This document shows, piece after piece, positions 3,975 to 21,335 of a stretch of 64,000 nucleotides of DNA. Origin of the DNA: Thermoanaerobacter pseudethanolicus ATCC 33223 (GTDB lineage: Bacteria; Bacillota; Thermoanaerobacteria; Thermoanaerobacterales; Thermoanaerobacteraceae); contig NC_010321.1 of assembly GCF_000019085.1 (NCBI RefSeq), positions 1,000,501 through 1,064,500 on the forward strand, read 5' to 3'. The notes beneath the pieces are model-generated. The model made no database searches. It worked only from the letters and a program-made list of their open reading frames with translations, and was not told the origin of the DNA. The translations under genes were made by a program, and so were the position numbers. The stretch's first letter is position 1. Each line of letters opens with the position of its first letter.

Positions 3975-5085
3975 ATTAGCTTTTAAAGATATTAGAAAAA
4001 ACAAATGGAAAATTCTTTTATTTATTTTCCAAATGGCAATTTTTTTGTTTTTTACAATTATAATTTTAGAACAGTTTGTACAGATGAGTTACCACAGCAA
4101 AACACTAAAGATTGTAAAAAATAACAATATAATCTTTTTTAAAGATTACATAAACCAGTGGGAACGTCCTTTTATTGACAAGGAGATATATTATTTTTTT
4201 GAAAATCTTTTTGACAGGAGTGGTAATGCGTACTCCGTAATGGAAAATGCAGGTACTACAGAATTTTCACAAGAACATCCCGATGCGAAAATAGTTATAG
4301 GGGTGGGGAATTTTGATAAAATTTTTGGCATTGATAAATACAAAGATACAGAAAAACCCTCATACGTTTTTATAGGTTCTGATGTAAAAAGCATCAAGAT
4401 TGGAGATGAAATTAAATTGGGAATTTTTAATAGGCAAACGTACAAGGTTGATGGAAGATTAGAAAAGGGAGAGGGTTATATAAATAAAGGCAGATACAGA
4501 AGTTTAGACGACAAAGTACTGGTTTTGACTTCATCAAGAGAAGTAGCAACATTGTACCAAACAGGAGGGTTTCTTGAGTTAATACAAAATATTCATATTA
4601 CAAAATCGGAGGAAGACGAGATTGACAAAATTGTAGAAATGGCAAATAAGACTAAAAAAGTTACTTTAATTCCTGAAAAATTGGATTTAAAAAGTATAAT
4701 TGAAAAGGACTATAATGAGGACTTCATGAATTTTATATTTTTTTCAAGCTTTCTTATAAACATGGGGATATTCATAATAGTTGGATTGGTTTCTTTCCTT
4801 TATGTAATGATAGAGCGCAACTTTACAGAATATGTTGTTCATCAAATATACGGGGCTACTAAAAAAGATTTATATTTGCGCATAACTATTTTTGTGGTTT
4901 TAGTTGTCATTTTGCCATTAGCTATATTTTTAGCTATACCTAATATGCTTTTATTGCCAAGCACCAAGTGGGTATGGTGGTTTGTCTTTACGTTTTATTT
5001 TATAACAATATTATTTGTATCCATTTTGTCTGTTGGGAGATTGAACAAAAAAGACTTAACAGCATTTTTAAGGAGGGATAATTAA
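3958..5085 (+). CDS. FtsX-like ABC permease subunit 2
   Basis: About 375 residues with the same layout as its neighbour: N-terminal helix (about 17-38), external domain, then three helices after residue 255. The GTG at 3949 lies inside the ribosome site AAAGGGTGA, so the ATG at 3958 is the likelier start. It overlaps the upstream stop by 17 nt, which suggests translational coupling. It probably pairs with the 2910-3974 permease and the ATPase at 5088. Confidence 0.8.
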   Translation: MITQFKLAFKDIRKNKWKILLFIFQMAIFLFFTIIILEQFVQMSYHSKTLKIVKNNNIIFFKDYINQWERPFIDKEIYYFFENLFDRSGNAYSVMENAGTTEFSQEHPDAKIVIGVGNFDKIFGIDKYKDTEKPSYVFIGSDVKSIKIGDEIKLGIFNRQTYKVDGRLEKGEGYINKGRYRSLDDKVLVLTSSREVATLYQTGGFLELIQNIHITKSEEDEIDKIVEMANKTKKVTLIPEKLDLKSIIEKDYNEDFMNFIFFSSFLINMGIFIIVGLVSFLYVMIERNFTEYVVHQIYGATKKDLYLRITIFVVLVVILPLAIFLAIPNMLLLPSTKWVWWFVFTFYFITILFVSILSVGRLNKKDLTAFLRRDN

Positions 5086-6580: not shown

Positions 6581-6730
6581 ATGAAGAAGAAGATATTAAT
6601 TATGTTCTTTGTTGTAAACATTTTATTTACATCTTGCTTTTTTAGTCCATTAGGAGAAGGGAAAGTAGTTCCACTGTGGGAAGAAGATGCAATTGACTTG
6701 CACTCCTATGACTCCATTGGGATGAAATGA
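6581..6730 (+). CDS. Putative secreted pheromone precursor 2 (PapR-like)
   Basis: 49 codons, the same length as precursor 1. It has a MKKK start, hydrophobic residues 5-23, then a tail with VVPLWEEDAIDLHSYDSIGMK-like sequence. Its own regulator copy is truncated (6293-6479), so this is an orphan signal that either acts on the intact regulator at 894-1859 or is no longer used. Conservation of the reading frame against precursor 1, with changes concentrated at the end of the tail, suggests selection on the core PL-x-EEDAIDLH. Confidence 0.7.
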   Translation: MKKKILIMFFVVNILFTSCFFSPLGEGKVVPLWEEDAIDLHSYDSIGMK

Positions 6731-7340: not shown

Positions 7341-7424
7341 ATGGTGAGAAAGATAAATTTCGACCCCATCGTTAATCCAGCATTTTGTGGTTTAGCGAAA
7401 ATATGCGGCGTTGAAATTAAGTAA
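7341..7424 (+). CDS. RiPP precursor peptide 1 (two-cysteine, 27 residues)
   Basis: 27 codons with a very strong ribosome site (AGGGGGAGGTG). It ends in AFCGLAKICGVEIK, with two Cys six positions apart. It lies directly before a radical-SAM/SPASM protein and an ABC exporter and is separated from them by a strong hairpin, the layout of radical-SAM-modified bacteriocins. The thiols could become thioether crosslinks (sactipeptide or ranthipeptide). No leader protease is visible nearby. The role is inferred from context, since the peptide is too short for a family call. Confidence 0.7.
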   Translation: MVRKINFDPIVNPAFCGLAKICGVEIK

Positions 7425-7430
7425 AAATTA

Positions 7431-7478
7431 GGTGAGATGTGTAGTTTGAAAGACTACATATCTCACCCTCCTTTTTTC
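7431..7478 (+). terminator. Attenuating terminator between precursor 1 and its maturase
   Basis: A 15-bp stem (GGTGAGATGTGTAGT with ACTACATATCTCACC, one G-U pair) has a 7-nt loop and is followed by CTCCTTTTTT. Partial read-through would give many precursor transcripts per enzyme transcript. It also shows that the open frame seen from 7437 is not the true start of the next gene. Confidence 0.85.
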
Positions 7479-7517
7479 CTTGATCATAATTGGATTATAA
7501 GAAGGAGCGTGTTTTCG

Positions 7518-8900
7518 ATGTATTATGAAAAGGCTAATGTTTATATTACTAATGACAAGAAAATATTATTTGATTTGAATAAATATGATATATACGAGAT
7601 TGATGATGAAACTTTCAACTTATTTGAAGAAATATATTTTGAGGTAGAAAAAGGAGTTTTATTTGATGAAAACATTAATGAAAGCACTCCTAAAAAGAAA
7701 GAAATATATGAACTGTTGTTTAGATTTCGGAATTATAACAGTAGTGGAGAAAGAGAGACTACCCAGATAAGGATCCACACGAGCAATGAGTGTAACCTTA
7801 AGTGCAAGTACTGTTATGCAAACCATGGGGACTATAACCAAGGGCAAGCTATAATGACAGAAGAAATAGCGGAAAAAGTAGCTGATTTTATAAAGTTAAA
7901 TTTTCCAAAAGTTAAAGTTATAGTATTTTTTGGAGGAGAACCTTTACTTGGATTTAAAGCTATAGGAAAGATATGTGAAAAAATGGGAAAAGAAACACAT
8001 TACATTGTTTACACTAATCTTACGATTTTAAATGAAGAAATAATAAAACTAATTAACGAGTATAGTATAAATGTTACAGGAAGCATAGATGGTCCAAAGG
8101 AAATACATGATCTTAATAGGGTATATAAAAGGAACGGAAGAGGAAGCTTTGATATTGTTAGGCACAATGCTAGGAAACTTATGGAGGAAACAGAATATTT
8201 CGATACGGTGGATGCCGTATATACTCTTCCAGCTCAAAAAAAGTATTCTAAACATCAGATCGCAGAGTACCTTTACAAAGAATTTAAAGTAAAATATATT
8301 GCTATTGGCGATGTGATTACAGAAGATGAAACGCTTAAAGTAGAAAAGGAAAAGGTCCAAGATATAGAAAAAGAAGTTGAATATGTGTTTGACAATATAA
8401 TCGCTGATAGGTTTATTTATCTAAATGAATACTCTCTTCCATTAATATCATTTTTCTCCAAATCATATAATGATAATTTTTGTACTACAGGTATCTCAAA
8501 TATTACGATAACAGCCAGCGGGGATATATGGCCATGCCAATTGTTCATTGGGAGAAATGAATATCATATGGGGAAAATAGATTTTAACGACATTACAAAC
8601 TTCGATTTTAAAAAATTCAATAAGGTGTCAGATAATTTTTACAAAATAAAGAAATCTAGATTTTCAGAATGTCAGAAATGTATTGCTAGATATTGGTGTG
8701 TAAAGTGCTTGGGAGCTATACAAAAAAATAACTTAGAAGAAAATATCATAACAAGTGAGTGTATAAATATACGGAAAATAACAGAAATAGTCTTAGAAAA
8801 ATTAGGATATTACATTTTAAATGGCAATTTTGAAAAACTATACGGCAACCTAAGGAAAACAACAAAAGGAATTGAGGATAAATTTTTAAATGTTGTGTGA
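7518..8900 (+). CDS. Radical SAM/SPASM peptide maturase 1
   Basis: 460 residues from the ATG at 7518, chosen because GAAGGAG at 7501-7507 is well placed and the upstream in-frame starts lie in the terminator or on the ribosome site. Order: an N-terminal ~85-residue peptide-recognition-like region, the radical SAM cluster CNLKCKYC (Cys 92, 96, 99), FFGGEP, then a C-terminal SPASM region with Cys in CTTG, WPCQLF, ECQKCIARYWCVKC and SECI for auxiliary iron-sulfur clusters. Such enzymes install thioether or other crosslinks on Cys-containing peptides. The likely substrate is the 27-mer at 7341. Exporter genes follow within 20 nt. Confidence 0.85.
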   Translation: MYYEKANVYITNDKKILFDLNKYDIYEIDDETFNLFEEIYFEVEKGVLFDENINESTPKKKEIYELLFRFRNYNSSGERETTQIRIHTSNECNLKCKYCYANHGDYNQGQAIMTEEIAEKVADFIKLNFPKVKVIVFFGGEPLLGFKAIGKICEKMGKETHYIVYTNLTILNEEIIKLINEYSINVTGSIDGPKEIHDLNRVYKRNGRGSFDIVRHNARKLMEETEYFDTVDAVYTLPAQKKYSKHQIAEYLYKEFKVKYIAIGDVITEDETLKVEKEKVQDIEKEVEYVFDNIIADRFIYLNEYSLPLISFFSKSYNDNFCTTGISNITITASGDIWPCQLFIGRNEYHMGKIDFNDITNFDFKKFNKVSDNFYKIKKSRFSECQKCIARYWCVKCLGAIQKNNLEENIITSECINIRKITEIVLEKLGYYILNGNFEKLYGNLRKTTKGIEDKFLNVV

Positions 8901-8919
8901 AAAGGAGTGAAAGACCTGT

Positions 8920-10653
8920 ATGAGAGAATTTCTATTCAAGTATAAAAAAGAGTTTGTGCTTGCAGTATTTTTCTTAGTAGCTTCTGTATTGATAAATATT
9001 TACTTTGCTTTTATTTATAAAAAACTCATAGATGTAGCAACTACACGTGATTTGGTGAAATTTTATTCTGTTGTCAAATTCGCAGTAATGTTTACCATAT
9101 TGGAAGCAGTAGTTGGATGGTTAAATAGAACAACTCGATTTCATTACATGAAAAAAACTTTGATATACCTAAAAGACAGGTTATTTAGAGCAATCATTAA
9201 AAAGGATGTGGAACATTTTAATGAAGTTAATACAGGTAAGTACATTTCAATTATTTCAAATGATGTAAAGATTGTAGAAGAGGATTATTTTAACAATTTC
9301 TTTAGGCTTTTAGGCAGTGCAGTAGGATTTGTGGCTGCATTAATTTCTCTATTTATATTAAGTTACAAAATAACTGTGATGATAATACTCATGGCAATTC
9401 TTAGTGTAATAATTCCTCGCATTTTTGATGATAAGATTGCTAAAATGAGAAACGATTATTCTGAGAGCTTAGAACTTTTTACTATAGAATCTAAAGATAC
9501 TCTTACAGGACTTGAAGTGATAAAGAGCTTCGGGATAGAGGATAAAGTACATGAGAAGTTTTCAAAAGTTAATGAAGATGTGGAAGATAAAAAGCTTAAA
9601 TACAGCGTGCTTTTAAATACCTCTGACACCATGTCAGAAATTTTAAGTAGCTTTATTTTCCTCTCTGTATTTGCAGTAGGTTTATACTTTAATATAAAAG
9701 GAGAGATGACTTTAGGAACGATGATTGCCTGTGTACAGCTTACCAATAACATAATTATGCCAATATACAGTATGGGTCAAAATCTCAACAGGATACTCTC
9801 ATTAAAGAGCATATCACAGAAGATAAATGAAGTATTACAGGAAAAGGAAGAGAGGAATGATTATATACCAGTAAAATCTTTTAACGACTCAATAGAATTT
9901 AAAAACGTATCTTTTAGCTACACAGGGGAGACAAAAGCTTTGGATAATATAAACTTTACAATCAAAAAAGGAGGAAAGTACGCATTAGTAGGGACAAGTG
10001 GAGCAGGGAAATCCACAATACTCAAGTTATTGTTAAAACAATATGAAAACTATGAAGGAGAAATAAAATTAGATGGGATAGAATTAAGAAGAATAGACAA
10101 GAAAGACTTATTCAAGATAATAACCCTATTACATCAGAATGTATTCATATTTGACGGGACAGTAAAAGACAACATAACCCTATTTAATGACAGATACACG
10201 GATGAAGAAGTAGTAAGAGCGGCGAAGATAGCAGGATTAGGGCCGTTATTAGAGAAATTGCCAGAGGGGATATTAAGTGATGTAGGAGAAGGGGGAAAAC
10301 TTTTATCGGGAGGGGAGAGGCAGAGGATAGCGATAGCTAGGTCAATAATAACAAATGCGTCAATACTGGCACTGGATGAAGCGACAGCGGCGTTAGACAA
10401 TGAGACGGCGTATATGATAGAGAAGACGATACTAGATATGGACATAACAGCGATAGTTGTAACACACAGGTTGTGGAGTGAGCTACTCAAAAGGTATGAC
10501 GAGATAATAGTATTAAGGGATGGAAGGATTGTGGAGAAAGGAAGGTTTGATGATTTAATGAAGATGAAAGGGTATTTTTACAGTTTGTTTAATATAGAGA
10601 AGCTGGATAAAGTAGAGGAGCGTATAGAAGAAGAGGGAATATATGTGGTGTAA
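8920..10653 (+). CDS. ABC exporter (membrane plus ATPase), RiPP cassette 1
   Basis: 577 residues: six transmembrane helices in about 1-300 and an ATPase domain in 325-565 with VGTSGAGKST, LSGGERQRIAIA and ALDEATAALD, and switch His in VVTHRL. It lacks a C39 peptidase domain, so it does not cut leaders itself. It begins 20 nt after the maturase and probably exports the modified peptide. From about 9,850 on, the codons shift toward ATA, AGG, GAG and GCG compared with the first half, hinting at a mosaic gene. The neighbouring copy at 10687 is broken, so this may work as a homodimer. Confidence 0.9.
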   Translation: MREFLFKYKKEFVLAVFFLVASVLINIYFAFIYKKLIDVATTRDLVKFYSVVKFAVMFTILEAVVGWLNRTTRFHYMKKTLIYLKDRLFRAIIKKDVEHFNEVNTGKYISIISNDVKIVEEDYFNNFFRLLGSAVGFVAALISLFILSYKITVMIILMAILSVIIPRIFDDKIAKMRNDYSESLELFTIESKDTLTGLEVIKSFGIEDKVHEKFSKVNEDVEDKKLKYSVLLNTSDTMSEILSSFIFLSVFAVGLYFNIKGEMTLGTMIACVQLTNNIIMPIYSMGQNLNRILSLKSISQKINEVLQEKEERNDYIPVKSFNDSIEFKNVSFSYTGETKALDNINFTIKKGGKYALVGTSGAGKSTILKLLLKQYENYEGEIKLDGIELRRIDKKDLFKIITLLHQNVFIFDGTVKDNITLFNDRYTDEEVVRAAKIAGLGPLLEKLPEGILSDVGEGGKLLSGGERQRIAIARSIITNASILALDEATAALDNETAYMIEKTILDMDITAIVVTHRLWSELLKRYDEIIVLRDGRIVEKGRFDDLMKMKGYFYSLFNIEKLDKVEERIEEEGIYVV

Positions 10654-10686
10654 GGTAAAGTGTTTTATAGAGGAGGATGAGCCAAA

Positions 10687-11505
10687 GTGAAGGCATTTTT
10701 GTTAAAATATAAAAAAGAATTTGTAATTGTAGTATTTTTTGCAATTCTTGCTGCTCTGATGAATGTTTTTGTAGCATTTATCTTAAAAATGTTTTTTGAT
10801 GTAGCTACAATAGGCAGATTAGAGAATTTTTATACTGCCGTTGAAATAGCATTGGTTTTTGTGATTTTCAACAGCCTTGTACTCTGGTTGGCTCAAATAT
10901 CTAAATTCGACTATATCAAAAAGAGCTTAATACATTTAAAAAATGTACTCTTTGAGAAAATTATAGGAAAAGATTTAAATCAATTTGATGAAGTAAATAC
11001 CGGTAAATATATTTCAATTGTTTCCAACGATATAAACATGATAGAAGAAAATTATTTCAACAACTTTTTTGAACTGGTAAGCAGTGGAGTGGGATTTTTA
11101 GCAGCACTAATTGTTTTATTCATACTTAGTTATAAAATTACCTTTATAATAATTGGTTTGACAGTTTTAAGCATGTTAATACCGAGAGTTCTGGATAGAA
11201 AGATAAGCGATTTAAGATGAATTTTCTCACACAGTTTAGAAGAATATACGAGTATGGCAAAAGATATCCTCGCGGGGTTTGAGGTAATAAAAAGCTTTGG
11301 CATAGAAGGAAAGGCAAAAGAGAATTTTGAAAATGTAAATGAAGAAGTAGAGAAAAATAAGCTCAAATTCAATTTAGTACTGAATATGGCAGATGTAATT
11401 GGGTATTTTTTAGCTTTGGGTTTAATGTTAGTAGTGTTTAGATTAGGTATGTGGGAAGAAGATGCAATAGAACTACACTCCTATAATTCCATTGGGATGA
11501 AGTAA
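10687..11505 (+). pseudogene. Broken ABC exporter, membrane part only
   Basis: A GTG start with GAGGAGG upstream begins a protein closely similar to the first 250 residues of the 8920-10653 exporter. An in-frame TGA at 11218-11220 interrupts the frame after DLR, and the same frame continues with homologous sequence (EVIKSFGIEGKA). At about 11449 the gene is cut and joined to the pheromone-tail repeat, so its last codons read WEEDAIELHSYNSIGMK. The ATPase domain is absent. It was probably the partner of, or a tandem duplicate of, the upstream exporter. Confidence 0.85.
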
Positions 11506-13500: not shown

Positions 13501-13737
13501 TTAAATTTAAATAATTAGGGTATATTCAAAAGTAGCTAAAAAGGTAGGTTTTCTTCTTTCTTAAAAATATTTCTATGTTGTATATAAAAGAATAATTCGA
13601 CAAATATGAGGGGAAATTCTACATAAAAGATAAAGAATTCAAGAGTGATAGGAAAAAGTATGTCTCCAGAATCGCTTAAATGAAGGCTTTTGAATTTTGC
13701 ACAAGTCTATTTCAAAAAGCAAGGAGGTGAAAAATAA

Positions 13738-13848
13738 ATGAAGGTACTTTCACCAGCAAAGTTAGAACAAAATGGATTAAAGGTAATTCCACCACTTTGT
13801 GGACCTTGTTCCCATTTGGGTGGATGTAGAAGTATTGAGATATACTAA
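13738..13848 (+). CDS. RiPP precursor peptide 2 (three-cysteine, 36 residues)
   Basis: 36 codons after a perfect AAGGAGGTGA ribosome site. The first half (MKVLSPAKLEQNGLKVIPP) looks like a leader, and the second half is the Cys-rich core LCGPCSHLGGCRSIEIY. The layout is like the Cys-rich clostridial bacteriocins made by CcpM-type radical SAM enzymes, an analogy from memory. A strong hairpin, a radical SAM maturase and two ABC half-exporters follow. The core differs entirely from precursor 1, so the two cassettes make different products. Confidence 0.75.
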   Translation: MKVLSPAKLEQNGLKVIPPLCGPCSHLGGCRSIEIY

Positions 13849-13882
13849 AATAAAAGATACAAACTATTCTTGAATAAAAAAT

Positions 13883-13943
13883 GCTGTGCTCATAAGAGAG
13901 TAACCAATATGTGCCTTATGAGCACAGCAAGGATTTCTTTTTT
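13883..13943 (+). terminator. Attenuating terminator between precursor 2 and its maturase
   Basis: A perfect 14-bp stem, GCTGTGCTCATAAG (13883-13896) with CTTATGAGCACAGC (13915-13928), is followed by a T-rich stretch. It sits in the same place as the hairpin of cassette 1. The rest of 13849-14109 has an open frame through the hairpin that I do not believe is a gene. Confidence 0.8.
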
Positions 13944-14109
13944 GTGGGTTTTGGTTTTGATAATTACTGCTTTTGACACGAAGCAAGAAGCTTTCTCTTT
14001 TCTCAAATCCTTCTCTATAATCTTTTCCCTACCAAGTATTGTAAGGTTTAATATACCTCAAAATTAGAGGTTTATCTGACATAATTTATAGACTTTAGGG
14101 GTGTGAAAA

Positions 14110-15474
14110 ATGAAATTTACAAAATTTTACTCTTTTTTAGATGTAAACCAACATCATTATTTGTTAAATACCATAAATTCTGCGTTGATAGAGCTGGATG
14201 ATGAACACTACGAGAAACTTAAAAAAGCTTTTTATCTAAATAATCCAGATGTCATTGAAACCGATGAAAAAAATGTACTAGCAGACAATGGTTTTTTAAT
14301 TGAAGACACAATAGATGAGTACTTGAGTATTCGAAACAAGTATCTTTTCTCTAAGTATAACGTTTCTTATAATTTGAAGTTAGATATTGCTGTTACTAAT
14401 AAATGTAATTTTTCTTGTGTATATTGTTACGAAAATTTTTCTGATAGTAAGATGTCATTTGAACTTAATGATGAAATAAAAAGCAAATTCTGTAATAATT
14501 TGAGAAAATATTTAAATCATATGATAATGAATTATAAAGTAAAATCGCTTCAAGTAACTTGGTATGGTGGTGAACCTTCACTTGAATGGTCCTTAATCTT
14601 TACATTAAATAATGAGTTTATAAAATTAGGAAATGAACATCATATACGATATAAAAATGTGATTGTTACTAACGGTTTTTTAATTGACGAAAGTATAGCT
14701 ACTAAATTATCGCAACAAAACACAGAATATGTACAAATAACTGTTGATGGACCCGAAATAATTCATGATAAGAGAAGATATCTTGCTAATAAAAAAGGGA
14801 CCTATTCAAAGATTTTAGATGGGATATACAATCTTCTGAAAAACGGAGTAAATACAGTTGTAAGAGTAAATATTGATAAAGGTAATATAGATTATATTGA
14901 GATATTAATAGAGGAATTATATAGTAGATTTCAAACGTTTGTAGGAAAAGGTTTGCTTTCACTTGATTTAGCAAGAGTATTTGGGCATCGAGATTCTTTT
15001 TCACTTTCGGAGTTTTATAGCAAACGTAAAATTATTATGAAAAAAGCAGTAAAATTAGGATTTATTAACCCATCACTTGAAAGTGGTGGTGTAAGAGCAT
15101 ATTGTAATGCAGAAACTGATGTACTTAGTAATCTTACTATTGATGTTTTTGGGAATATATACAAATGTTGGAATTATGTTTTTGTCAAGGATTCTAGCTA
15201 TTGTACTTTAGATGAGCTTATTGAAAATAATTTTGAAATATTACCTCAAAACAAAAATAGATTGGATTACGTGGAAAAAGTGTCACTTCTAAATGCTAAC
15301 AATGGGCAATGCTTAAAATGTAAATATATTACATACTGTGCTGGTCTATGTCCAGATGTGAGAAAAAAAATAGCAAACGGAGAAGAAGAAAATATTTATA
15401 AAAATGAAAAATGCAAATCAATAGTAGAAGATTTAATAAAAGAGCAGATTAAATTAATTTATAATACAGACTAA
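14110..15474 (+). CDS. Radical SAM/SPASM peptide maturase 2
   Basis: 454 residues. The N-terminal region (about 1-85) resembles a peptide-recognition domain. The radical SAM cluster is CNFSCVYC (Cys 99, 103, 106), followed by TWYGGEPS. The C-terminal SPASM region has Cys in AYCNAE, YKCWNY, GQCLKCKYITYCAGLC and NEKC. This is the pattern of maturases for Cys-rich bacteriocin-like peptides. The substrate is probably the 36-mer at 13738. It differs strongly from maturase 1, so the cassettes are not recent duplicates of each other. Two exporter genes follow 16 nt later. Confidence 0.87.
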   Translation: MKFTKFYSFLDVNQHHYLLNTINSALIELDDEHYEKLKKAFYLNNPDVIETDEKNVLADNGFLIEDTIDEYLSIRNKYLFSKYNVSYNLKLDIAVTNKCNFSCVYCYENFSDSKMSFELNDEIKSKFCNNLRKYLNHMIMNYKVKSLQVTWYGGEPSLEWSLIFTLNNEFIKLGNEHHIRYKNVIVTNGFLIDESIATKLSQQNTEYVQITVDGPEIIHDKRRYLANKKGTYSKILDGIYNLLKNGVNTVVRVNIDKGNIDYIEILIEELYSRFQTFVGKGLLSLDLARVFGHRDSFSLSEFYSKRKIIMKKAVKLGFINPSLESGGVRAYCNAETDVLSNLTIDVFGNIYKCWNYVFVKDSSYCTLDELIENNFEILPQNKNRLDYVEKVSLLNANNGQCLKCKYITYCAGLCPDVRKKIANGEEENIYKNEKCKSIVEDLIKEQIKLIYNTD

Positions 15475-15490
15475 ATAAAGGGGTTTTATT

Positions 15491-17098
15491 ATGGAAGCAA
15501 TAAAAAAGTTTAAAGTTTTGTGGGAGATAATTCCTAAAAAAGATAAAATTTATTATATTGCTTACACCATAATTTCAATAATTCATTCATTATTGTTTGT
15601 TCTTTTGCCTTTCTTGTATAGAGATATTATAAACGCAGTTACTACAAGAGTTTATCCTGAAGAAAAAGTGTTTTTTTACATCGCTCTCACGATACTTGGG
15701 TATGCATCAATAAGATTGTGGAGTTTGATGAATGTATACATAAAAGAAAAAATGACTAAAAATCTTTTAGATAAGCTTTTTTCCTCTATACTTAAGATGG
15801 ATTTAAAATTTTTTATAAGAAAAGATGCAGGTTACTGGGCGAGTATATTTTCAAATGATGTGAGATTTGCCTCACAGCTTTACAGCGATTTTCTTTACAC
15901 TCTTCCGGCAGAATTTATCGTGTTTATTGCTATACTGGCAATTTTATTTGTCTACTGCAAACCGCTTTTAATTATAGTTACTGTTATTCTTTTTGCAGTA
16001 ACCCTTATAAGTTTATTGAGAGAAAAATATGTAATTCCTCATTATGACAGAGCGCAAGAGAATTTAAGGATAACAAGTGACCATATAAATGCGTACTTAA
16101 AGGGGATAGAGGACCTCATACACTACAGAGGGGAGTCTTTTTTGAAGAAGAAATTTTTAGAGGATTTCAGCTCTTATATTGACAATATCAAAAACTATCT
16201 CTTAAGAGATTTTCTAAATGGATATTCTATAAACCTTTTTAATGAATTTGGGAAACTTGCAGCTATAGGTATGTCTTTACTGTTTTTTGTAAGGGGAGAC
16301 TTTAGTTTTGGCACAGCAGTAATGCTAATAACGTTTTCTACAATGTCTTATGATAAAGCTAATTATATTGTTGAAAACTTGAAATGGCTTCAGAATTTTC
16401 CACCTCATATAGAAAAAATACAAGAGGCAATTGAATTACCGGAAGTAGAGATGGAAGATAAAGGCACAGGTAATTTTGAAGAATTGATTTTAAATAATGT
16501 TAGTTTTAGCTATGATGGAAAGCTTGTTTTAAAAAACTTTAGTATGCAGGTGAAAAAAGGTGAGATAGTTGCTTTAATTGGCAGGAGCGGGATAGGAAAA
16601 TCGACTGTTTTAAAGATTATAACGGGATTTTTAAAACCTCAAAAGGGAGAAGTGATTTTTTTACAGGGGAAGCCTAAAATAGGCATGTTATTTCAAGGAG
16701 GGCGATTATTTAACCGCACTCTTAGAGAAAACTTGCTTATAGCAAAACCAAATGCCTCTGAAGAAGAATTGGTAGAAGCCTTGAAAAAGGCAGGACTGTT
16801 GGAGTGGTTTGAGAAACTGCCAAAAGGGTTTGATACACAAATAGGACAGACAGGAAAGCTTATTTCAGGAGGAGAACGGTCGAGATTGTCACTAGCAAGG
16901 ACGATTTTGTTTGATCCGGAAATTCTTTTACTTGATGAGCCTTTGGTAGGTGTAGACCAAGATAGAAAAGAAGAAATACTTGATACACTAAAAGAACTGC
17001 TAAAAGGCAAAACCTGCATTTTAGTTACTCATGATAAGAGTTTATTGAGAATTGCTGACAGGACAATATATATAATGGAAGAGGAAGATGCAGTATGA
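15491..17098 (+). CDS. ABC half-exporter A, RiPP cassette 2
   Basis: 535 residues: six membrane helices in about 1-300, then an ATPase domain with IGRSGIGKST, ISGGERSRLSLA and ILLLDEPLVGVD. The Walker B region reads DEP, where exporters usually have DEA. There is no C39 peptidase domain. Its last four bases overlap the start of the next exporter (ATGA), so the two are translationally coupled and almost certainly form a heterodimer that exports the modified peptide. Confidence 0.9.
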   Translation: MEAIKKFKVLWEIIPKKDKIYYIAYTIISIIHSLLFVLLPFLYRDIINAVTTRVYPEEKVFFYIALTILGYASIRLWSLMNVYIKEKMTKNLLDKLFSSILKMDLKFFIRKDAGYWASIFSNDVRFASQLYSDFLYTLPAEFIVFIAILAILFVYCKPLLIIVTVILFAVTLISLLREKYVIPHYDRAQENLRITSDHINAYLKGIEDLIHYRGESFLKKKFLEDFSSYIDNIKNYLLRDFLNGYSINLFNEFGKLAAIGMSLLFFVRGDFSFGTAVMLITFSTMSYDKANYIVENLKWLQNFPPHIEKIQEAIELPEVEMEDKGTGNFEELILNNVSFSYDGKLVLKNFSMQVKKGEIVALIGRSGIGKSTVLKIITGFLKPQKGEVIFLQGKPKIGMLFQGGRLFNRTLRENLLIAKPNASEEELVEALKKAGLLEWFEKLPKGFDTQIGQTGKLISGGERSRLSLARTILFDPEILLLDEPLVGVDQDRKEEILDTLKELLKGKTCILVTHDKSLLRIADRTIYIMEEEDAV

Positions 17099-18693
17099 CT
17101 AATATAAAATGGGTGTTTCGTTCAATAAATAAAACTCTTTTGATAAGCTTTTTTGCTGTTTTTTCCGTATATTTGCTATCTGAAACAGGACTTTTAATAT
17201 TGCCATTACTTTATGGGCAGATTTTAAATACAGTTGAAAGCACAAGGATTTTTCCATTACATCTTTTTATGATGCTCTTAGGCTTTACTGTTTTGCTTCT
17301 GACACTTAGGTCTTATACAAGTTTTATAAACAGCAGGCAGCAGGCTAAAATTCACGAAAACCTCTGTTTAGTTGCAATCAAAAAAATATTTAATCTTCCT
17401 CCTTCCAAAGTTGCGGAAAAAGGGTCAAAATATTATACAGACACGGTTTTGGAAAGGACGAGAGAGGTTTCTACTCTTTTTGACATTAAAGCTATGACAG
17501 GAATTATTAATCTCATAAAGCTTTTTGTAATAACAGTAATAATATTTTTTATAGATAAAATTGTGGGAGTTGTCTCAGTTGTCCTTATCCTCATATCTAT
17601 CTGCATCTATAAATATGGAAATGAATATTTTATGAAACACAATAAAGAATTGATAGAGAAGAAAATGGAGTATCTGAGCAACGTAGAAGACACTATAAAA
17701 AACAAAGAGGAGATACATGTATTGAATGCTTTTTCCTATGAGTTAAAAAGAAATGATATTTTTACAGAAGAATTAAGGAAAATGGCGTCTAAAATTTTTG
17801 CTAGAGATTTTATTCACTTTTTTATAGAGCTTGATTTTGTAAGGATTTTTTATGAACTATTGGTCTTTACATGGGGCCTTTATCAGGTGTACATTGGAAG
17901 CTATCAAATAGGTGCAGGAATAGTGCTTATTGGGTACAGTACAATGATTACAGGGCCAATCGTATATTTAAATTCAATTCTTTTAAATATAAAAAACAGC
18001 CTAAATGCAGTTGATATTCTAAAGGAATTAGAGGTAAAAGAAGAAGGGGTAATTGTACCTGAAGGAGAAATTGAAGAAATCATTTTTGACAAAGTTAACT
18101 ATACAGTAAATGGTAGAGATATTTTTAAAGATTTTTCTTTTAGTATTAAAAAAGGTGAAAGGATTGCCATTTTAGGACCTTCTGGTAAAGGGAAAAGCAC
18201 GCTTGTTACACTTATTTTAAAAGACATCAAGCCTACATCAGGTAAGATACTCATAAATGGGAAGGACATAAACTTTATTTCTAAGGACTGGCTCTATCAG
18301 CAGATTGCAGTGCTTTCTCAGAATTCTACTTTGTTTCCGGCAACAATTGAAGAAAATATAAAATTAGGGGAGGACTTTTACAGGAGGGAGGAGTTAGAGG
18401 GGATTTTAAGAATAGTGAAACTTCCTTTTGATTTGGATTATACAATTGAAGAAAATGTTTCAAATGTTTCTCAAGGTGAAAAAGAGAGAATTTTACTGGC
18501 AAGGCTTATAGCTCACGACAAAAACTTTATTATTCTTGATGAACCTCTTGAGGGAGTGGACATTGAGACTAAAAAAGAAATCATAAGCTTTTTAAAGGAG
18601 TATCTTAAAGATAGGACAGCTTTAGTGATAACACATAGAGATGAAATTGCACAAAACCTATGTGAGAGGGAAGTAAGGATAGATGAGAGATAA
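17095..18693 (+). CDS. ABC half-exporter B, RiPP cassette 2
   Basis: 532 residues, membrane domain then ATPase. Walker A is GPSGKGKST and Walker B is FIILDEPLEGVD. The signature is degenerate, reading VSQGEKERILLA where LSGGE is normal. Heterodimeric exporters often have one weakened site of this kind. It is the last gene of the cassette and overlaps the partner gene by 4 nt. Confidence 0.9.
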   Translation: MTNIKWVFRSINKTLLISFFAVFSVYLLSETGLLILPLLYGQILNTVESTRIFPLHLFMMLLGFTVLLLTLRSYTSFINSRQQAKIHENLCLVAIKKIFNLPPSKVAEKGSKYYTDTVLERTREVSTLFDIKAMTGIINLIKLFVITVIIFFIDKIVGVVSVVLILISICIYKYGNEYFMKHNKELIEKKMEYLSNVEDTIKNKEEIHVLNAFSYELKRNDIFTEELRKMASKIFARDFIHFFIELDFVRIFYELLVFTWGLYQVYIGSYQIGAGIVLIGYSTMITGPIVYLNSILLNIKNSLNAVDILKELEVKEEGVIVPEGEIEEIIFDKVNYTVNGRDIFKDFSFSIKKGERIAILGPSGKGKSTLVTLILKDIKPTSGKILINGKDINFISKDWLYQQIAVLSQNSTLFPATIEENIKLGEDFYRREELEGILRIVKLPFDLDYTIEENVSNVSQGEKERILLARLIAHDKNFIILDEPLEGVDIETKKEIISFLKEYLKDRTALVITHRDEIAQNLCEREVRIDER

Positions 18694-18732
18694 TAGCAAT
18701 TTTTTTATTGTCTAAACCTTATAAAAAATGGC

Positions 18733-18772
18733 ATTCACAAGGTCGGGGGTTCAAGTACCCTTGGCTCCACCA
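18733..18772 (+). other. tRNA 3'-end fragment, candidate att site (island edge)
   Basis: The 40 nt read like the variable loop, T arm (GGGGGTTCAAGTACCCT, one stem mismatch) and 3' acceptor strand of a tRNA ending GGCTCCACCA. No 5' half lies upstream. Integrases commonly use tRNA 3' ends as att sites, so this probably marks the downstream junction of the peptide island. The parent tRNA is not in the window; an alanine-type acceptor is possible but unproven. Confidence 0.6.
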
Positions 18773-19022: not shown

Positions 19023-19715
19023 ATGATTAAGTTAATTGGTATTTTAATCATTATTGTGGGATTTGTCTTGAAGCTCGATACTTTAGCAGTGGTTTTAATT
19101 GCTGGTATTGTGACTGGCCTGGTGGCAGGGGTACCTTTTCATAAAATTGTAGAAATTTTAGGAAAAGCTTTTGTAGACAATAGATATATGTCTATATTTA
19201 TTATCTCATTGCCTGTAATTGGAATACTTGAAAGGTATGGTCTCCGTGAAAGGGCTGCATATGTAATAGGAAAGATAAAAGCAGCTACAGTGGGAAAAGT
19301 AACTTCTTTATATTTAGCACTTAGGACATTGGCAGCGATGTTCGGCTTAAGGCTTGGCGGACATGTACAATTTATACGACCTTTGATATTACCTATGGCA
19401 GAAGGGGCAGCAATGAATAGATATGGCGAAATAAAAAGCGAAGACCATGAAACAATTAAGGGGTTAGAAGCTGCAGTAGAAAACTATGGTAATTTCTTTG
19501 GGCAGAATGCTTTTGTTGCAGCAGGAGGTGTTTTGTTAATTGTTGGTGTATTAAAAGAATTAAACTATACCGTAGAAGCTTTAGATATCGCAAAAGCGTC
19601 AATACCTATCGCGTTAATAATAATGGTAGTTGGTACTTTGCAGTTTTTCTATTATGACAGAAAATTTGACCAAAAGTATAGGATAAGAACGAGGTCCAAA
19701 AAAGAAAATAGGTAA
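19023..19715 (+). CDS. DUF969 family membrane protein
   Basis: 230 residues with several hydrophobic segments (about 1-40, 55-75, 90-110, 160-180, 195-215). The family is found next to DUF979 proteins and pyroglutamyl peptidase, exactly as here, and the pair is thought to be a transporter for a small (pyroglutamyl-related) substrate. That function is inference from gene order. A strong AAAGGGGG site precedes the start. Confidence 0.85.
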   Translation: MIKLIGILIIIVGFVLKLDTLAVVLIAGIVTGLVAGVPFHKIVEILGKAFVDNRYMSIFIISLPVIGILERYGLRERAAYVIGKIKAATVGKVTSLYLALRTLAAMFGLRLGGHVQFIRPLILPMAEGAAMNRYGEIKSEDHETIKGLEAAVENYGNFFGQNAFVAAGGVLLIVGVLKELNYTVEALDIAKASIPIALIIMVVGTLQFFYYDRKFDQKYRIRTRSKKENR

Positions 19716-19740
19716 AATGCTTAGGAAGGAGGAGTATTGA

Positions 19741-20697
19741 ATGCTTAAGGATTCTTTAACTGAAATCCTATACATTATGATGGGCATAGTTTCTTTTTAC
19801 TCAGCGTATGCTACACTAAAAGAAAAAAATCATCCTTCAAAAATCCCTACTGCTTTATTTTGGGGGTTATTAGGAATAATTTTTACATTTAGTCGAATAG
19901 GCTTATTGTGGGGTAATAAAAACATTTATATACCTGATATATATACAGGATACATGGTTATTGTATTGACTCTATTATCTGCATTTCGATTAGTCAAAAT
20001 TGGAAAATTTGACGAATCAACCTCAGAATTTAAAGAACAAATGTCACAAAAAATTGGCAATCTAATTTTTGTTCCAGCTTTGGCTCTTGGCATAGTTACA
20101 TTTATTGTTGCTCAAGTATGGACAAAACAACTTGGTTCTCTTGTTGCATTTTGGATATCAACTGTAGTTGCAGCAATTTTAGCATTGGTGATTACAAAAG
20201 GGAAAGTTAAAGAAATGGCTGATGATGGTAGAAGATTGCTTGAAGTAGTAGGACCTATAAGCATTTTACCGCAACTTCTTGCTGCTTTAGGAGCTGTTTT
20301 TACAGTTGCAGGTGTAGGTGAAGTAATAGCAAGTGGGATAAAGACAATTATTCCTCAGGGTAATATACTTTTAGGGGTAATTGCTTATTGCTTAGGAATG
20401 GCTTTATTTACCATGATAATGGGCAATGCTTTTGCAGCATTTGCGGTTATTACAGCAGGAATTGGAATTCCTTTTGTAATAGCTCAAGGAGGGAATCCGG
20501 TGATAGTAGCGGCTTTAGGTATGACAGCAGGATATTGTGGAACTTTAATGACACCAATGGCGGCGAATTTTAATATAGTTCCGACTGCAATATTGGAAAT
20601 GGAAGATAAGAAATATGGAGTTATAAAATATCAAGTTCCTGTAGCTATTGCCATGCTCATTATTCACATAGTACTAATGTATTTTTGGGCATTTTAA
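19741..20697 (+). CDS. DUF979 family membrane protein
   Basis: 318 residues with about nine hydrophobic segments, partner of the DUF969 gene 25 nt upstream. GNAFAAFAVITAGIG and TAGYCGTLMTPMAANF resemble the re-entrant loops of ion-transporter superfamily permeases. It lies between DUF969 and pcp in one operon. Confidence 0.85.
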   Translation: MLKDSLTEILYIMMGIVSFYSAYATLKEKNHPSKIPTALFWGLLGIIFTFSRIGLLWGNKNIYIPDIYTGYMVIVLTLLSAFRLVKIGKFDESTSEFKEQMSQKIGNLIFVPALALGIVTFIVAQVWTKQLGSLVAFWISTVVAAILALVITKGKVKEMADDGRRLLEVVGPISILPQLLAALGAVFTVAGVGEVIASGIKTIIPQGNILLGVIAYCLGMALFTMIMGNAFAAFAVITAGIGIPFVIAQGGNPVIVAALGMTAGYCGTLMTPMAANFNIVPTAILEMEDKKYGVIKYQVPVAIAMLIIHIVLMYFWAF

Positions 20698-20723
20698 TAT
20701 TTTTATGAAAGGGTGATATGATA

Positions 20724-21335
20724 ATGAAAATACTAGTAACAGCTTTTGATCCTTTTGGGGGGGAAAATATTAACCCTTCTTATGAAGTATTAAAAAACTT
20801 GAAAGATAATATAGAAGGTGCGGAGATAATTAAGATTCAGGTTCCTACTGTTTTTTATCTTTCTGTTGAGAAAGTAATAGAAAAAATAAAGGAAGTTAAG
20901 CCGGATGCAGTTCTAAGTATTGGACAGGCTGGCGGGCGATATGATATAACTGTTGAAAGAATAGCGATTAATATTGATGATGCTAGAATTCCAGATAATA
21001 TAGGGCAACAACCAATTGATACCCCGATTGACCCTGAAGGTGCTCCAGCTTATTTTGCTACTATTCCCATAAAAGAGATAGTAGAAGAGATAAAAAAAGA
21101 AAATATACCGGCATCAATTTCTAATACAGCAGGTACGTTTGTGTGCAATCATTTAATGTATGGAATTCTCAATTATGTTCACAAAAACGGATTAAATATT
21201 AAAGCAGGCTTTATTCACATACCTTATTTGCCAGTGCAAGTTTTGAATAAGCCTTATACTCCTTCCATGTCTTTAGGGGATATGGTTAAAGCTATAGAAA
21301 CTGCTATAAAAGTAATTGCAAAAAAAAGTAGATAG
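20724..21335 (+). CDS. pcp: Pyroglutamyl-peptidase I
   Basis: About 203 residues, normal for the C15 family. It removes N-terminal pyroglutamate from peptides in the cytoplasm. The substrate-binding start is ILVTAFDPFGGE, the catalytic Glu is near VERIAINIDDARIPDN, the catalytic Cys is in AGTFVCNHLMYG and the His is in FIHIPYLP. The ATG at 20724 is preferred over 20718 because AAAGGGTGA is 7 nt from it. Cotranscription with the DUF969/DUF979 permease suggests uptake and use of pyroglutamyl compounds. Confidence 0.93.
   Translation: MKILVTAFDPFGGENINPSYEVLKNLKDNIEGAEIIKIQVPTVFYLSVEKVIEKIKEVKPDAVLSIGQAGGRYDITVERIAINIDDARIPDNIGQQPIDTPIDPEGAPAYFATIPIKEIVEEIKKENIPASISNTAGTFVCNHLMYGILNYVHKNGLNIKAGFIHIPYLPVQVLNKPYTPSMSLGDMVKAIETAIKVIAKKSR

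Follow-up and report, generated by a model that had tools for sequence, protein, structure and literature searches.

For Thermoanaerobacter mathranii, genome mining led to a thuricin CD-like cluster (Tmath_1974-1977) with a 32-residue peptide containing two cysteines, a 453-residue radical S-adenosylmethionine (SAM) enzyme and two ATP-binding cassette (ABC) transporters (PMC3132745). Three thioether bridges per peptide are known for subtilosin A and for the two peptides of thuricin CD, and the rings of streptosactin connect Cys25 with Ser28 and Cys31 with Gly34 (PMC8172795). In this study a locus of such a known kind was investigated at positions 13738-18693 of a stretch of 64,000 nucleotides (64 kb) from Thermoanaerobacter pseudethanolicus ATCC 33223, called the window in the following. 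The four genes of this cassette encode, in this order, a 36-residue precursor peptide (P0001), a radical SAM maturase and two ABC half-exporters (Table 1). The cassette probably serves the biosynthesis and export of a ribosomally synthesized and post-translationally modified peptide (RiPP) of the radical SAM type and represents a compact, new and small subfamily. Judged from the sequences compared, it is new in that neither the peptide nor the maturase falls into a curated family and in that the core of the peptide is conserved across classes.

The original prediction of a RiPP cassette that combines a precursor with a SPASM maturase and a heterodimeric exporter was supported by a second locus and by the best maturase models. 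Outside the genus, a single close relative of the maturase was detected, in the genome G183 of another bacterial class (two draws of about 400 genomes each from the phylum). The maturases are 49-55% identical, the ABC genes 51% and 53%. A tblastn search of this locus (L015 4979-8436) with the window peptide MKVLSPAKLEQNGLKVIPPLCGPCSHLGGCRSIEIY yielded the peptide MKVLVPANKTESGIIAVHALCGPCSHLGGCRTIAG with 48.5 bits (E 2e-12), encoded about 2 kb from the maturase gene and not directly upstream of it. For 300 shuffled versions of the peptide the score did not exceed 24.3 bits. Since the G183 homologue far outscores all of them, the open reading frame (ORF) of the peptide is not a product of chance. 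In G183 transposase genes separate the intact peptide gene from the maturase gene, which is frameshifted. Despite this damage, the locus demonstrates that the peptide gene is passed on together with the maturase gene and the two exporter genes. The 36-mer proposed earlier, with a leader-like half and the core CGPCSHLGGC, was found as an ORF preceded by a Shine-Dalgarno (SD) sequence and with a homologue in G183. A lack of the peptide at close homologous loci was considered as well; the sole independent locus found contains it. Besides P0001, no small ORF of the window (20-75 residues) combines a strong SD sequence with at least three cysteines.

The conservation of the two peptides is unevenly distributed. 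Over residues 20-33, LCGPCSHLGGCR(S/T)I, they agree at 13 of 14 positions, with Ser to Thr as the sole change, in contrast to 6 of 18 over the leader residues 2-19 (Fisher p 0.003). The C-terminal tail is variable (EIY versus AG); E34, the only Glu in the core of P0001, is replaced by Ala in G183. In RiPPs the leader is usually the better conserved part. The conserved core with its divergent leader would reverse this pattern, which, coming from two sequences, is a lead and not a rule. It is more unusual than the number of three cysteines (core positions 1, 4 and 10) or the absence of a linked protease. The odd number of cysteines had been regarded as peculiar, but this view was not upheld, given the three-bridge peptides subtilosin A and thuricin CD (PMC8172795). 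P0001 did not match any NCBIfam (E up to 1), Pfam or PHROG model, the curated precursor models for Cys-rich bacteriocins in NCBIfam included. No Rfam match was obtained for the cassette, and in the literature searched neither the core sequence nor the word Clo7bot was found.

For the maturase, the best curated NCBIfam models were Clo7bot (172.4 bits, E 1e-50, nearly full length), TIGR04463 (163 bits), CefB (157 bits), PapB (107 bits) and CcpM (76 bits). The cut-offs of these models are 340-600 bits, with 600 for Clo7bot, 500 for CcpM and 340 for PapB. As the best models describe peptide-modifying radical SAM families, an assignment to a non-peptide family, which had been named as a possible objection, found no support. 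A profile search against solved structures gave CteB (5wgg) first (E 2e-31), followed by anSME, TigE and SkfB among others. The fold of the full model (predicted local distance difference test score, pLDDT, 77) matches CteB, TigE and anSME. The maturase contains motifs for all three Fe-S clusters, and its SPASM cysteines are present in the G183 maturase and in full-length relatives as well. An N-terminal piece of 88 residues, modelled alone, reached a pLDDT of 92; its residues 1-84 form three strands followed by three helices. The structural neighbours of this region are mostly leader-binding RiPP recognition elements (RREs), namely those of McbB, TbiB1, TigE, MccB, lasso B1 and PbtF (Z 6-7). 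The Foldseek E values of 0.07-0.7 are weak singly, but the list is consistent. Hence, an RRE fused to the N-terminus of the maturase is predicted from the model.

Two coupled half-exporters downstream of the SPASM maturase had also been described in the original prediction, and their coordinates, like those of the other two ORFs, were confirmed; both contain nucleotide-binding domain (NBD) motifs. The gene for ABC2 overlaps that for ABC1 by 4 bp (ATGA), the gap between maturase and ABC1 is 16 bp, and that between peptide and maturase 261 bp. Both ABC proteins, 28% identical to each other, contain ABC_membrane and ABC_tran domains, and no C39 peptidase domain was matched in either. Two adjacent halves with transmembrane domain (TMD) and NBD, NBD motifs and the lack of a peptidase characterize the pair as a heterodimeric type IV ABC exporter. 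Where ABC2 of the window has the signature VSQGE, G183 has LSGGE; because of this degenerate signature, one ATP site of the pair may not be fully functional. In the whole genome no C39 peptidase was detected, while the same search gave matches in 8 of 14 control genomes. The missing leader protease noted before was confirmed, but protease-free clusters have precedent: the cluster of thuricin Z is listed without one (PMC8172795). With neither a linked protease nor a C39 peptidase detected in the genome, the leader would be removed by an unlinked protease or not at all.

Table 1 Features of the cassette and its borders (positions in the window)
Feature	Position	Strand	Basis
Insertion-sequence end remnant	13508..13709	+	blastn L028 (82%), L031 (84-89%); terminal motif GAATTTTGCACAAGTCTA ends at 13709
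Shine-Dalgarno sequence AAGGAGGTG of the peptide gene	13721..13729	+	sequence; strong, about nine bases ahead of ATG
Precursor peptide gene, 36 residues	13738..13848	+	intact ORF; homologue at L015:4979-5086
Putative leader, residues 1-20, and putative core, residues 21-36, CGPCSHLGGCRSIEIY	within 13738..13848	+	both inferred
15-bp perfect hairpin between peptide and maturase genes	13882..13929	+	z -4.9; T-rich tract 13934-13943
Radical SAM/SPASM peptide maturase, 454 residues	14110..15474	+	profile matches, motifs, structure model
Predicted N-terminal RRE, maturase residues 1-84	14110..14361	+	structure model; RRE structural neighbours
Radical SAM motif CX3CX2C (CNFSCVYC), residues 99-106	14404..14427	+	sequence motif
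Complete seven-cysteine SPASM motif: CX15GX4C (332-353), CX2CX5CX3C (401-414), C435	15103..15414	+	sequence motif
ABC half-exporter 1 (ABC1), 535 residues	15491..17098	+	TMD-NBD; Walker A, ISGGE signature, DEP and H-loop canonical
ABC half-exporter 2 (ABC2), 532 residues	17095..18693	+	TMD-NBD; degenerate signature VSQGE
Diverged 3' part of tRNA-Ala gene, right island edge, attachment-site-like	18727..18772	+	sequence comparison

The general features of a radical SAM RiPP cluster are present: a precursor beside the maturase and ABC set (with an insertion sequence, IS, between them in G183), CX3CX2C and SPASM motifs and the predicted fused RRE. In the proposed mechanism the RRE would bind the short N-terminal leader of the precursor. 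The maturase, with SAM and two auxiliary clusters, would then cross-link at least one of the three cysteines within the invariant block LCGPCSHLGGCR, most likely to short thioether rings (sactionine or ranthionine). Thioether formation is the likeliest chemistry, because the conserved block contains Cys, His and Ser, while Trp, Tyr and Phe are absent from it. For the same reason aromatic cyclophane or Lys-Trp chemistry is unlikely, with His26 as a small opening. A nested three-bridge hairpin as in thuricin CD is impossible, since only six (P0001) or five (G183) residues follow the last cysteine; room is left for unnested thioethers. By analogy, small unnested rings of the streptosactin kind would fit the core. 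The spacing between C30 and the conserved I33 resembles that of the streptosactin ring partners, which makes them at most a candidate pair. The product would be exported by the heterodimeric ABC pair and either trimmed by an unlinked host protease or used with its leader retained; it could act as bacteriocin or signal.

Among the described systems, the cluster Tmath_1974-1977 shares genus, plan and a CX3CX2C enzyme with the cassette. The sequences, compared by the description in the paper (PMC3132745), are not the same: the peptide of T. mathranii has a GG motif and two C-terminal cysteines, and its enzyme contains CNLKCEYC instead of CNFSCVYC. Streptosactin (GggABC) resembles the expected product as a very short 14-mer with small unnested thioether rings, which the 16-residue core would suit. 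In contrast, its precursor is of the GGG type with two cysteines, and GggC is a processing and export protein, whereas the ABC pair of the cassette is free of peptidase. The GggB model did not rank within the top 25 for the maturase. With thuricin CD and subtilosin A the cassette has three cysteines per peptide, a radical SAM enzyme and ABC export in common. These peptides differ by nested hairpins, in which the acceptors lie C-terminal of all donors, at least eight residues away in thuricin CD. CteB, the enzyme of the SCIFF system, is the best solved structure by profile and matches over the full length of the maturase, the RRE region and the full SPASM domain included. SCIFF precursors contain six cysteines in about 45 residues, compared with three in 36 for P0001, and the TIGR03974 score was 55.7 bits against a cut-off of 425; an assignment as SCIFF ranthipeptide was rejected. 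The genome has a separate SCIFF-like locus, a peptide-maturase pair (L020 5140-6729), and also another radical SAM gene, apparently split in two (L019 5913-7432). A PapB-type ranthipeptide with links from Cys to Asp or Glu was rejected too, with the NF047865 score of 107 bits below 340 and the only core Glu, E34, not conserved. The similarity to Cys-rich clostridial bacteriocins of the CcpM/CLI_3235 type suggested earlier could not be maintained: TIGR04068 gave 75.9 bits against 500, the match was confined to residues 6-255 and no precursor model matched.

Searches in the genus, family, order and class detected only a near-identical copy in Thermoanaerobacter sp. A7A and distant Clo7bot-like loci. 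Two of 240 sampled genera carry the cassette (one phylum draw). No further relatives were found in the class of G183. A search of the class around the genome G087 added none, which with three genomes says little. Viral contigs scanned with the maturase and the back-translated core CGPCSHLGGC gave no match. By tblastn with the peptide, only chance-level matches from Sinorhizobium (E at least 1) were obtained for plasmids and none for phages.

The A7A copy (contig L010) differs by one base in the cassette (4.7 kb coding), but by 42 in the adjoining genes at 19023-21335. Hence, the cassette was transferred or shared far later than the flanks diverged. In the genomes G002 and G003 the order smpB, transfer-messenger RNA (tmRNA), tRNA-Ala and DUF969 is intact without the cassette. 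From this comparison, the cassette appears to lie at the margin of an island that was recently transferred and occupies a tRNA-Ala site; an integrase could not be identified. In T. pseudethanolicus itself smpB, tmRNA and tRNA-Ala, which adjoin DUF969 in congeners (L028, L029), lie about 373 kb off in opposite orientation (G000 1392476-1393389). An IS-mediated inversion is likely, since both regions are bordered by copies of one DDE transposase.

Several observations weigh against the reading as a RiPP cassette. The maturase misses the cut-offs of all curated maturase families by a wide margin, and neither a protease gene nor an immunity gene accompanies the cassette. Independent peptides are known in two cases only, and the G183 locus is broken by the IS insertion between peptide and maturase and by the frameshift. 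The IS end, which in congeners adjoins other genes, cuts the natural upstream region 28 bp before the ATG of the peptide, so any promoter would lie within the IS remnant or farther upstream; a promoter scan gave nothing above chance. From the sequence, the native promoter may have been lost, and expression in this strain is uncertain. It is doubtful, though, that the cassette is a decaying relic which is no longer expressed here. Such decay would agree with the close IS end, the IS copies nearby, the damage in G183 and the broken second ABC gene of a neighbouring cassette. However, all four frames are intact and the single difference from the A7A copy speaks for integrity, although that copy is recent. 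The locus is unlikely to be just a divergent representative of the Clo7bot or Cys-rich clostridial bacteriocins with a shortened precursor. Clo7bot (TIGR04334) is indeed the nearest maturase model, with a similar N-terminal domain and the same SPASM cysteine pattern, and congener relatives with 29-31% identity adjoin Cys-rich peptides. The score nevertheless remains far from the cut-off, and the systems differ in length, sequence and cysteine number of the precursor and in gene order. The Clo7bot-like peptides observed here have about 60 residues, are Cys-rich and mostly start like MEYL(I/V)EGY/F or MS(R/K)MQMLVEG. In Thermoanaerobacter they are encoded downstream of the maturase beside an S41 peptidase gene, whereas P0001, without family, lies upstream in a cassette that lacks this gene and any linked protease. 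By maturase score and precursor, membership in Clo7bot was not supported.

That P0001 is a fixed functional peptide and not a bacteriocin, with a redox-active CGPC pair or a role as metal chelator or cell-cell signal and the third cysteine cross-linked, appears quite improbable. CGPC is the active-site motif of thioredoxin, the core is near-invariant across two classes while the leader has diverged, opposite to typical arms-race RiPPs, and an immunity gene is not linked. On the other hand, only two sequences are available, CGPC may be a coincidence, and the patchy distribution (2 of 240 genera) and the island location are typical of bacteriocins. A bolder reading is held with little confidence, namely a separate radical SAM peptide family in which the invariant core LCGPCSHLGGCR(S/T)I is a fixed functional molecule with an undescribed ring pattern instead of a diversifying bacteriocin. 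Finally, the small ORF could be a regulatory leader peptide whose Cys codons form, with the hairpin, an attenuator before the radical SAM and ABC genes. The hairpin is strong and T-tailed and lies about 33 nt past the stop codon, and G183 has one at the same position. This explanation is very improbable: the G183 hairpin (17 bp, z -7.3) is unrelated and without T tract, attenuation by such peptides usually depends on a series of identical codons but the Cys codons here are scattered, a specific sequence of 13 residues with Pro, His, Leu and Gly is conserved, and a maturase with predicted RRE needs a peptide substrate. Within the RiPP cassette, the hairpin may set the ratio of peptide to enzyme, either as an attenuator or by stabilising the mRNA; it could lower the enzyme output.

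With one 36-residue precursor, one enzyme and one exporter pair, the cassette would be a very small radical SAM RiPP system from a thermophile, defined by two independent members. It offers an easy test case for heat-stable maturases and for how many rings fit into a core of 16 residues. The conserved core raises the question of radical SAM peptides as conserved effectors rather than variable toxins.

Further radical SAM loci were observed. In the congener Clo7bot-like loci L005, L006, L007 and L009 the peptide cores differ strongly by strain, while the starts (MEYLIEGY) are conserved. In the genome G337 two tandem Clo7bot-like maturase genes (L017 3039-6108) enclose a Cys-containing ORF of 43 residues (4583-4714). 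Another cassette is present in the window at 7341-11505. It comprises an SD-led 27-residue peptide with two cysteines, MVRKINFDPIVNPAFCGLAKICGVEIK, a PapB-like SPASM maturase (7437-8900; 152 bits, below cut-off), an ABC half-exporter (8920-10653) and the broken second ABC gene (10687-11505). Two unrelated ORFs, at 6581-6730 and 11254-11505, share the C-terminal sequence WEEDAI(D/E)LHSY(D/N)SIGMK, which points to a repeated element truncating genes. In the region left of the window (L033 379-11732), PADLOC assigned genes for BREX-type defence, namely BrxF, BrxC, PglXI, BrxHI and PglZ.

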